DNA from: Gammaproteobacteria bacterium
GTDB taxonomy: Bacteria > Pseudomonadota > Gammaproteobacteria > Ga0077536
DNA: 38,630 nucleotides
Reading direction: 5' to 3'
Assembly (NCBI GenBank): GCA_030833185.1
Contig: JAURHQ010000013.1
Span: 1-38,630 of the forward strand
The translations under genes and the position numbers were made by a program. A model generated the notes under the pieces. The model was not told where the DNA came from. It was given only the letters and a program-made list of their open reading frames with translations, and searched no databases. Every line of letters begins with the position of its first letter. The first letter of the stretch is position 1. Of this stretch, positions 1,531 to 28,637 are shown piece by piece.

Positions 1531-3105
1531 GTGACCCCAGTGCCTGAGGCTGGCGCCGCGCTTGCGCAGGTCAGGGCCGCGATCGCGGCCGCCGCCGACG
1601 CGGGCCACCGGGCGCCAGCGCAGATCGCCCTGCTCGCCGTTAGCAAGCGCCAGTCCCCCGCCGCGATTCGCGCGCTAGCCGCGTGCGGGCAGCAGGCCTT
1701 TGGCGAAAACTACCTGCAGGAAGCCTTGAGCAAGCAGGCGGCGCTTGCCGACTTGCCACTCACCTGGCACTTCATCGGCCGAATTCAGCGAAACAAGACC
1801 CGCGATCTCGCAAAATCGTTTGACTGGGTGCACACCATCGACCGCCCGGAAATCGCGCAGCGCCTGAGCGCGCAGCGGCCACCCGAGCTGGGACCCTTGC
1901 AGTGCCTGATTGAAGTTAATGTTAGCGCCGAAGCCAGCAAGGGCGGCGTGTCACCCGCAGATCTGCCGGCGCTGGCCCAGCTGGTTGCGACGCTGGACGG
2001 CCTTCAGCTTCGGGGCCTGATGTGTTTACCCGCCCCGGCGGAGGACTTTGCCGCGCAGCGGCTGGCCTTCCGTCAGCTACGGCAACTGCGCGATGGGCTA
2101 AATCTGCCCGGGCTTGATGTGCTGTCGATGGGCACCTCGGCGGACTTCGCGGCGGCCATCGCCGAAGGCGCCACCCTGGTTCGAATCGGGACCGCGCTGT
2201 TCGGTGCGCGCGAGCCCGAAGCGGCTAAAGTTCAGGGTGTTACACTCCAAAACGTATTCGAACGGCAGGAAAATGCGGAGATGAGCGACACGCTAGCCTT
2301 CATTGGCGCAGGCAACATGGGGCGCGCCATCATCGGCGGTCTGGTGCAGGGTGGATTGCCGGCTACGCAAATTCGCGTAGCCGACGCCGACCCGGCTGCC
2401 GTCAGCGGCCTCGCTGAAACGCAGGGTACGGTGAGTTGCGCCAACAATCTGGAGGCGGTCTCCGGTGCCTCCGTCGTGGTGCTCGCCGTCAAACCCCAGC
2501 AGATGCGCAGCGTCGTGACTGAACTCGCGCCCGCGCTGGCGGCCAGCCGCCCGCTGGTGCTGTCGATTGCGGCCGGGATCACCACCCAGGCGCTGGCCCA
2601 GTGGCTGGGCGGTGAGGCAGCAATCGTGCGCAGCATGCCCAATACGCCCGCCCTGATCCGGCAGGGGACCTCAGCGCTCTTTGCCAATCCGGCGGTGTCC
2701 TCTGCCCAACGGCGCCTGGCGGGCACCGTCATGGGCGCGGTCGGCAGGGTGCATTGGCTCGAAGATGAATCCCTGATGGACGCCGTAACCGCGCTTTCGG
2801 GCAGCGGGCCGGCCTATATTTTTCGCGTCATCGAGGCGCTGGAGGAGGCCGGGACTGCGCTCGGTCTGCCGCCGGCGTTGGCCCGGGCGCTGGCGCTTGA
2901 AACCACCGCCGGCGCCGGCGCGCTGGCGGCGGGCTCGACGTTTGCGCCTGGCGAACTGCGCGCGCAGGTAACTTCACGCGGTGGCACCACCGAACGCGCC
3001 CTCGCCGTGTTGAACGAAGGCGGGCTGGCGGGACTCTTTGCGCAAGCGCTGGTGGCCGCGCGCGACCGCTCCCGCAGTCTGGCTGAAGAGTTCGGACAGC
3101 CATGA
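1531..3105 (+). CDS. proC: YggS (PLP homeostasis) - ProC (pyrroline-5-carboxylate reductase) in-frame fusion
   Basis: One uninterrupted 524-codon frame holds two normally separate neighbours. Residues 1-about 232 are YggS/PLPBP, a fold-III PLP-binding homeostasis protein: LLAVSKRQ carries the likely PLP lysine (K39), followed by FGENYLQE, WHFIGRIQ, LMCLPAP and SMGTSADF. From Met251 (ATG at 2281) comes a complete 274-residue ProC with the Rossmann start AFIGAGNMG and the signature ALSGSGPAYIF plus ALEEAG. ProC reduces pyrroline-5-carboxylate to proline with NAD(P)H. The joining stretch, about residues 233-250, looks like translated intergenic DNA: a GCGGAG motif directly precedes ATG 2281, and an extended -10-like TGTTACACT lies at 2238-2246. 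ProC may therefore also be made alone. The start is a GTG at 1531 with no clear ribosome-binding site. The alternatives are a lost yggS stop codon or a sequence error. The gene overlaps yggT by ATGA. Confidence 0.9.
   Translation: MTPVPEAGAALAQVRAAIAAAADAGHRAPAQIALLAVSKRQSPAAIRALAACGQQAFGENYLQEALSKQAALADLPLTWHFIGRIQRNKTRDLAKSFDWVHTIDRPEIAQRLSAQRPPELGPLQCLIEVNVSAEASKGGVSPADLPALAQLVATLDGLQLRGLMCLPAPAEDFAAQRLAFRQLRQLRDGLNLPGLDVLSMGTSADFAAAIAEGATLVRIGTALFGAREPEAAKVQGVTLQNVFERQENAEMSDTLAFIGAGNMGRAIIGGLVQGGLPATQIRVADADPAAVSGLAETQGTVSCANNLEAVSGASVVVLAVKPQQMRSVVTELAPALAASRPLVLSIAAGITTQALAQWLGGEAAIVRSMPNTPALIRQGTSALFANPAVSSAQRRLAGTVMGAVGRVHWLEDESLMDAVTALSGSGPAYIFRVIEALEEAGTALGLPPALARALALETTAGAGALAAGSTFAPGELRAQVTSRGGTTERALAVLNEGGLAGLFAQALVAARDRSRSLAEEFGQP
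2238..2246 (+). promoter_or_regulatory. Possible internal extended -10 promoter for proC
   Basis: TG (2238-2239), one base, then TACACT (2241-2246) resembles an extended -10 element (TGnTATAAT; 4 of 6 in the hexamer). It lies in the linker between the YggS and ProC parts, and a start near 2253 would give a leader of about 28 bases ahead of ATG 2281. No good -35 is visible. This is inference from a short match. Confidence 0.25.
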
Positions 3106-26759: not shown

Positions 26760-27674
26760 ATGTTCAAGCGTTTACGCGAAGGCATCGCCCGAACCCGGGA
26801 TGGCCTGCTGAATAAACTGGGCCGCCTGCTGGGCCGCCGCGAGCCTGTCGATGCCTCTTCACTTGAGGCGTTGGAGACGGCTCTCCTGGTGGCCGACGTC
26901 GGAGTGCCAGCGACGTCGAAAATCATTGAAGCAGTGCGCCAGAAAGCCGGCCGTAGCGATTCGCCACTCATCGATCTGCTCCACGCGGAGATGGCGGAGG
27001 CTTTGGCGCCGGTTGAGCAGCCTTTGCGCATTCCGGCGGAATTGGGTTCCCCGTTTGTGATTCTGGTGGTGGGCGTCAACGGCGTGGGCAAGACAACCAC
27101 GATTGCCAAGCTTGGGCGGCGCCTGCAGGCCGAAGGCCACAAGGTAATGTTCGCGGCCGGCGACACATTCCGGGCGGCAGCCGTCGAACAACTCAAAACC
27201 TGGGGTGAACGGCTGGGTATTCCCGTCATCGCGCAAGGACCCGGGGCCGATCCGGCGTCGGTCATTTTTGACGCCTATTCGGCGGCGGCTGCGCGGGGCT
27301 GCGATGTATTGTTGGCAGACACCGCCGGTCGGCTCCACACACAGGGTGGCCTGATGAACGAACTGGCCAAGATTCGCCGTGTGCTGGGTAAACAGAATCC
27401 CGCCGCCCCCCATGAGACCCTGCTGGTGCTCGATGCCACCATGGGCCAGAACGCCTTACAGCAGGCGCGAACCTTTCATGAGACGGCGCCGCTGGATGCG
27501 TTGATTCTCACCAAGCTCGACGGCACCGCCAAAGGCGGCATCGTCTTCGCCATCGCCGACGCCCTCAAACTGCCGCTGCGTTATATCGGGATCGGTGAAC
27601 AGGCCGACGATCTGCAGCCTTTTTCAGCGACTGCTTTCGTCGACGCCCTGCTGGGTCTGGGCGAAGCGGAGTAG
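26760..27674 (+). CDS. ftsY: FtsY, signal recognition particle receptor (short form)
   Basis: The SRP receptor GTPase that brings translating ribosomes to the Sec machinery at the inner membrane. It has the N domain, then the G domain with GVNGVGKTT (105-113), [28 protein letters not shown] and [10 protein letters not shown]. From ATG 26760 it is only 304 residues. The acidic A domain that makes the E. coli protein about 500 residues is missing, and only a basic amphipathic N-terminus ([20 protein letters not shown]) precedes the N domain. Such short forms occur elsewhere and can be functional. In-frame GTG 26748 is an alternative start. The usual followers ftsE and ftsX are absent; rpoH comes next. 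Confidence 0.95.
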
Positions 27675-27699: not shown

Positions 27700-27727
27700 G
27701 GAACCGGCAAACTGTTTAGCACTCTAA
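27700..27727 (+). promoter_or_regulatory. Possible sigma-E type promoter of rpoH
   Basis: GGAACCG (27700-27706) and TCTAA (27723-27727) resemble the sigma-E elements GGAACTT and TCTGA/TCAAA. The 16 bases between them equal the spacing of the sigma-E-dependent rpoH P3 promoter of E. coli. Transcription would start near 27733, inside the CIRCE operator, and the -10 is partly built from the operator's left arm. A TTGACC at 27686-27691 could be a sigma-70 -35, but no good -10 follows at the right distance. The call is inference from pattern and spacing. Confidence 0.45.
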
Positions 27728-27742
27728 CCGGTCGAGTGCTAA
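27716..27742. promoter_or_regulatory. CIRCE operator (HrcA binding site) upstream of rpoH
   Basis: The sequence is TTAGCACTC, nine bases, GAGTGCTAA: a perfect 9-9-9 match to the CIRCE consensus bound by the heat-shock repressor HrcA. It lies 25 bases before the rpoH start codon and 13 bases before its ribosome-binding site, in the 93-base gap after ftsY. It would block transcription into rpoH when HrcA is active, and would also form a hairpin in the rpoH leader RNA. CIRCE is usually known from groESL and hrcA-grpE-dnaK operons. No hrcA gene lies in this window. Confidence 0.93.
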
Positions 27743-27755
27743 GCTTGTTGCCATG

Positions 27756-27762
27756 AAGGAGG
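27756..27762 (+). promoter_or_regulatory. Ribosome-binding site that decides the rpoH start
   Basis: AAGGAGG lies 5 bases ahead of ATG 27768. The earlier ATG at 27753 overlaps this site and has no ribosome-binding site of its own, so 27768 is the likely start. Confidence 0.85.
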
Positions 27763-27767
27763 CACCT

Positions 27768-28637
27768 ATGACCCACGCAATTGATCTGCCTACACCCGTT
27801 GGCTCGCTTGAGGCTTACATTGACGCCATCGGGCGTGTGCCCTTGCTCAGCGAAGATGAGGAGCGGTTCCTTGCCCGGCGTTTCAGGGACGAAGAGGATC
27901 TGGGCGCTGCCCGCCAACTGGTCCTGTCGCATCTACGTTTTGTGGTGAAAGTAGCCCGTGGGTATCTGGGCTACGGTCTGCCGCATGGCGACCTGATTCA
28001 AGAGGGCAATATCGGCCTGATGAAGGCTGTGAAACGCTTTGACCCCAACGTCGGGGTGCGTCTGGTGTCCTTTGCCGTGCATTGGATCCGGGCGGAAATC
28101 CACGAATACATCCTCAAGAACTGGCGCATCGTCAAAGTTGCCACCACCAAGGCGCAGCGCAAACTCTTCTTCAACTTGCGCAGCGCCAAGCAGCGCACGG
28201 GTTGGTTGAATCACGGCGAGGCAGACGCTATCGCCAGCGAGCTGGGCGTGGACGTTAAAACCGTCCTGCTGATGGAAGAGCGCATGACTGCGCACGATCA
28301 GGCATTTGATATCGGGGTGGATGACGGCGACGACGACACCCACGCGCCGGTGAACTATCTGGCCGATTTGCGCTTTGAGCCTTCGCGGCAGCTTGAAAAG
28401 CTGGAAGGCGCGCAGGATGGTGCCGAGCGCCTGAGCCGGGCCTTAAGCCATCTGGATGAACGCAGCCGAGATATCGTCGCAAGCCGCTGGTTACAGGAAC
28501 CGAAGCAGACGCTGCAGGATCTGGCGAAAAAATACGCCGTGTCTGCCGAGCGTGTGCGCCAGATCGAGGCTCAGGCGTTCAGCAACTTACGCAAGGCGCT
28601 AGGGGGCGATTTGCAGAACCTGTTGCCGTCACCCTGA
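27768..28637 (+). CDS. rpoH: RpoH, heat-shock sigma factor sigma-32
   Basis: A 289-residue alternative sigma factor that directs RNA polymerase to heat-shock promoters. It carries the diagnostic RpoH box QRKLFFNLR (130-138), region 2 motifs [19 protein letters not shown] and [17 protein letters not shown], and a region 4 helix-turn-helix ([24 protein letters not shown]). I chose ATG 27768 because of the AAGGAGG at 27756-27762. A perfect CIRCE operator and a sigma-E-like promoter lie upstream, so control by HrcA and by envelope stress is likely. ftsE and ftsX, normally just upstream in this position, are missing. It is convergent with ctaB after 34 bases; no clear terminator is seen there. Confidence 0.97.

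Follow-up and report, generated by a model that had tools for sequence, protein, structure and literature searches.

A predicted HrcA operator is merged with sigma-E-type and sigma-70-like promoters of rpoH in Gammaproteobacteria

Introduction

Textbook accounts keep HrcA, with its operator CIRCE, and sigma-32 apart, as heat-shock circuits that are alternatives or run in parallel, and they treat the path from sigma-E to rpoH as particular to E. coli. The DNA analysed here, a stretch of 38,630 nucleotides from a gammaproteobacterial genome (GCA_030833185.1, contig JAURHQ010000013.1; the whole stretch is called the window), raises the question of what an HrcA operator is doing in front of rpoH, the gene of the heat-shock sigma factor itself. 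A sequence-only reading of the window had proposed that HrcA controls rpoH through this site, so that the two heat-shock circuits would be joined in series, and that the hairpin formed by the repeat could also act in the rpoH leader.

Results

A perfect CIRCE lies between ftsY and rpoH

The ftsY-rpoH intergenic region is 93 bases long and holds TTAGCACTCTAACCGGTCGAGTGCTAA at 27716-27742, which corresponds to CIRCE, TTAGCACTC-N9-GAGTGCTAA, with 0 mismatches; the exact HrcA operator claimed for this gap is thus there. A motif scan of the window at up to 3 mismatches returned this site as its sole match, and none of 100 dinucleotide shuffles yielded a CIRCE match. The features of the region are as follows.

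26760-27674, + strand: ftsY, upstream neighbour (TIGR00064, 334 bits, cut-off 261)
27700-27706, + strand: sigma-E-type -35 GGAACCG (5 of 7 to GGAACTT), starting 16 bases ahead of CIRCE; locked in register, absent at groES, tracking rpoE
27716-27721, + strand: putative sigma-70 -35 TTAGCA in the left CIRCE arm, with 18-base spacing to the TANNNT at 27740
27716-27742, no strand assigned: CIRCE, predicted HrcA operator, 0 mismatches, kept in relatives
27723-27727, + strand: sigma-E-type -10 TCTAA, spanning left arm and spacer of CIRCE, 16 bases from the -35
27740-27745, + strand: sigma-70-like -10 TAAGCT, the last three CIRCE bases and three more; its T at +29 is independent of rpoE
27756-27762, + strand: Shine-Dalgarno sequence of rpoH, AAGGAGG (from the sequence)
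27768-28637, + strand: rpoH, encoding sigma-32 (TIGR02392, 397 bits, cut-off 323), start ATG at 27768

An upstream in-frame ATG at 27753 offers an alternative start for rpoH. Elsewhere in the window, at 1531-3105 on the + strand, YggS and ProC are read in one open frame of 524 aa (TIGR00044 followed by TIGR00112), apparently through fusion of the genes or loss of a stop codon.

The same genome carries hrcA, rpoE and a groES operator

HrcA, on which the proposed control depends, is encoded in the same genome at the nadK / hrcA-grpE locus, the usual place of hrcA (PF01628, 1.8e-63; TIGR00331, 318 bits), and RpoE is encoded there too (291 bits, above the curated cut-off). The whole genome contains two good CIRCEs only, the one at rpoH (0 mismatches) and one upstream of groES (1 mismatch), groEL being the usual second gene of the groES operon. 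The expectation of further operators at groESL and dnaK was therefore borne out for the former and failed for the latter, as no third good CIRCE was found genome-wide that could serve dnaK or hrcA itself. A third match (C708, 3 mismatches) has no heat-shock gene downstream and was taken as chance. Because the genome holds no further good CIRCE, its HrcA regulon is predicted to consist of groES and rpoH.

The rpoH CIRCE recurs across the class and follows hrcA

In the family to which the window belongs, all 24 retrieved rpoH copies (the own genome, 7 of the same genus and 16 of other genera) carry CIRCE with 0 mismatches, with spacers and flanks that differ, indicating that the repeat is conserved in relatives, as the proposal implied. 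CIRCE is also found at the majority of 80 named or MAG rpoH loci, including those of Methylococcus, Woeseiaceae, Rheinheimera, Dyella and Pseudoalteromonas. In a draw of one genome per family across Gammaproteobacteria (123 rpoH copies from 122 genomes, with a site defined by at most 3 mismatches) CIRCE was present at rpoH in 84 of 92 copies from hrcA-positive genomes versus 5 of 31 from genomes scored hrcA-negative (naive Fisher 6e-15), the site being gone in 26 copies of the latter. About 18 independent pairs on the RpoH tree gave on average 10.2 concordant versus 0.6 discordant pairs (median p 0.006), in agreement in direction with hrcA dependence; this test is only supportive because the tree is poorly supported and its starred branches alone leave 2 pairs. 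Two of the five site-bearing exceptions also keep the groES CIRCE, and hrcA was therefore probably missed in them, while in three genomes that keep the rpoH site neither hrcA nor a groES CIRCE was detected. Conversely, eight rpoH copies of hrcA-positive genomes in the draw are without the site, and in Nitrococcus hrcA is present and the rpoH site absent. The shuffles, the perfect family copies and the class-wide counts together rule out chance or a local oddity as the source of the rpoH CIRCE. As judged from these genomes, the predicted operator is not particular to the genome of the window, and its layout recurs across most hrcA-bearing gammaproteobacterial families.

Two lineages show variants of the pairing between operator and repressor. 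In Xanthomonadaceae (loci L272, L273, L279 and L280) the rpoH and groES operators share a symmetric half-site change, CAGTC/GACTG, seen at both operators in Luteimonas gilva and in a Pseudoxanthomonas MAG, which suggests a shift in HrcA specificity. In Pseudoalteromonas sp. FUC4 (L049 / L283:1355-2320) hrcA occupies its usual nadK-grpE place and is very divergent (117 bits against a cut-off of 197), and a perfect rpoH CIRCE is the sole CIRCE of the genome at up to 2 mismatches; the HrcA of this strain looks dedicated to rpoH.

Two sets of promoter elements are built around CIRCE

Aligning the 89 rpoH CIRCE sites on the repeat and comparing them with 43 groES CIRCEs of the same class revealed elements in fixed register with the operator, which the sequence-only reading had overlooked. 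One set has a sigma-E-type layout, with GGAACTT at -16 to -10 and TCNNA at +7 to +11 separated by a spacer of 16. In the other, a T at +29 completes with the last repeat bases the hexamer TANNNT, a sigma-70-like -10, for which the left CIRCE arm (TTAGCA or TTGGCA), at 18-base spacing, is a possible -35. GGAACTT was matched at -16 in at least 5 of its 7 positions in 50 of the 89 sites, against an average of 1 such site, and never more than 4, at other offsets. The -35 box at -16 was found at 61/89 rpoH sites versus 2/43 groES sites, the A at +11 at 69/89 versus 6/43, and the T at +29 at 79/89 versus 5/43; groES CIRCEs are instead preceded by a CTTGA...TATNA promoter (37/43). That T+29 and A+11 form part of a longer HrcA site was ruled out, as both are absent at groES CIRCEs and neither shows mirror symmetry. 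Judged from sequence, the operator of the window lies inside a sigma-E-type promoter, GGAACCG-N16-TCTAA, which fits the pattern of a -35, a spacer of 15-17 and a TCNNA -10 with 5 of 7 matches in its -35, as well as in a sigma-70-like promoter whose -10, TAAGCT, is weak. G015, the only other member of the family in the class draw, is without a good sigma-E -35.

Of 274 genomes of the class, 42 contain the composite GRAAC-N11-CIRCE with A at +11, each of them once. Reading of composite loci gave RpoH as the first long reading frame in 28 of 30; at L371 and L385 the start was called in the wrong frame, and coordinates place the L371 composite directly before the rpoH of that genome. A looser composite had no match in the 212 genomes taken from the phylum's other classes. 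One of its matches within the class (L394, G149:C8:47854-47895, GAAC-N11-CIRCE) precedes not rpoH but a gene with a clpB-like start, and rpoH of that genome is without CIRCE.

The sigma-E-type elements depend on rpoE

Among genomes with CIRCE at rpoH, 62 of the 78 that have rpoE carry the sigma-E -35 box, versus none of the 11 that are rpoE-negative; the A at +11 accompanies the box (58/62 with it, 11/27 without), and the T at +29 is independent of it (55/62 with, 24/27 without), all three counts ignoring shared ancestry. Since the A follows the box and the T does not, the sigma-E and sigma-70 elements vary independently of each other, as expected of two promoters. In one rpoE-negative genome (G045, L173) two tandem CIRCE-like repeats lie upstream of rpoH.

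These counts also bear on whether HrcA might repress the sigma-70 promoter only, the GGAAC box belonging to some other factor or being unused by sigma-E here. Such a reading would account for the departure of the box in this genome (GGAACCG, not GGAACTT) and for the 16 of 78 rpoE-positive genomes that have the site without the box. However, the box agrees with the sigma-E consensus and stands at the correct distance from a fitting -10, none of the 11 rpoE-negative genomes has it, and the same layout is used by E. coli as P3 (PMC2909356), which leaves repression of the sigma-70 promoter only an unlikely explanation.

A leader hairpin and a relic site are poor explanations

The proposal that the repeat, once transcribed into the rpoH leader, forms a hairpin that could control translation or mRNA life was not supported. 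Readthrough from ftsY would let a 9-bp hairpin form 13-14 bases before the Shine-Dalgarno sequence, but transcription is predicted to start at about 27733 from the sigma-E promoter and about 27752 from the sigma-70 promoter, so that the left half or all of the repeat, and with it the full hairpin, would be absent from these transcripts. Moreover, the local fold is not unusual for its composition (z -1.3 and -1.7), the arms keep their sequence and not pairing alone, and the presence of the repeat follows hrcA; leader control is thus very improbable. Equally hard to credit is a relic or decoy that HrcA binds with no consequence for rpoH expression, for although hrcA appears to be missing from a few genomes that retain the site, the site is conserved near-perfectly across families, decays clearly on hrcA loss (26/31) and is, at up to 2 mismatches, the sole CIRCE retained beside the divergent hrcA of a Pseudoalteromonas genome.

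HrcA is predicted to gate both rpoH promoters

Read from the sequence, the operator and its partner genes, together with its conservation across the class and with promoter elements that keep a fixed register and depend on rpoE, point to control of rpoH by HrcA. Very probably the rpoH CIRCE is a true operator, through which HrcA represses rpoH by covering the sigma-E and the sigma-70-like core promoters. The core of the sequence-only reading, HrcA control of rpoH with the heat-shock circuits in series, is strongly supported at the level of sequence by the conservation across the class, the co-occurrence with hrcA and the half-site change in Xanthomonadaceae that runs parallel to groES.

In the proposed mechanism HrcA bound at 27716-27742 would cover the sigma-E -10 and the overlapping sigma-70-like core, and with the promoters occluded RNA polymerase could not start rpoH transcription. 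GroE stimulates HrcA binding in C. jejuni (PMC8533110). By such a signal, GroEL occupied by misfolded protein would cause HrcA to lose activity, freeing both promoters and raising sigma-32, which in turn would raise its chaperone regulon. Envelope stress acting through sigma-E would drive rpoH only as far as HrcA permits.

Discussion

Three circuits, those of HrcA, sigma-32 and sigma-E, appear to meet at this recurrent element of ~45 bp. We consider it likely, with less assurance than the assignment of the operator itself, that the standard rpoH promoter of Gammaproteobacteria, including lineages close to that of E. coli, is a three-input switch, in which sigma-E and sigma-70 promoters are gated by an HrcA operator placed in their core elements and GroEL capacity limits the rise of sigma-32 under cytoplasmic or envelope stress; E. 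coli P3 would be what remained after hrcA loss, and rpoH regulation in E. coli would be derived. This proposal offers a testable wiring, in which GroEL acts through HrcA on sigma-32 and HrcA gates the input from sigma-E, and it suggests how E. coli P3 could have evolved from an HrcA-gated rpoH promoter. Upstream of rpoH in one hrcA-negative genome (G154, L203) the sigma-E promoter TGAACTT-N16-TCTTA is intact and the right CIRCE arm has decayed, which suggests an intermediate towards the E. coli state.

In Geobacter sulfurreducens, whose genome also has hrcA and CIRCEs at groESL, a perfect CIRCE has been predicted 51 bases before rpoH (Rodionov et al. 2004, PMC545781, Table 8); unlike the present case, that prediction concerns one Deltaproteobacterium only and describes neither promoter context nor a link to sigma-E. 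A search of the open-access literature, with most subscription journals outside its scope, found no paper treating HrcA, sigma-E, rpoH and heat shock together. The survey of Permina and Gelfand from 2003 reportedly covers beta-, gamma- and epsilon-proteobacteria and may list gamma or beta rpoH cases. Within the open-access literature searched, the merged sigma-E/HrcA promoter and its spread across the class appear unreported, and what is new appears to be the widely conserved promoter layout into which a known operator is set.

Among known systems, the closest are the CIRCE/HrcA pairs at groESL and hrcA-grpE-dnaK operons, which share the operator sequence and presumably also the repressor, and of which the groES site of the same genome is a member. 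They differ in target, a chaperone there and a sigma factor here, and in placement: the groES CIRCE follows its promoter and covers the start region, whereas the rpoH CIRCE spans the sigma-E -10 and contains the sigma-70-like core. On the promoter side the counterpart is found in E. coli, which to our knowledge lacks hrcA and was not among the control genomes matching PF01628 in the HrcA profile search. Its rpoH P3, TGAACTT-N16-TCTGA, shares with the rpoH CIRCE promoters the -35, the 16-base spacer and the TCNNA -10. The fusion rpoHP3::lacZ is a standard sigma-E reporter (PMC2909356). There is no CIRCE at P3, which looks like the same promoter minus the operator.
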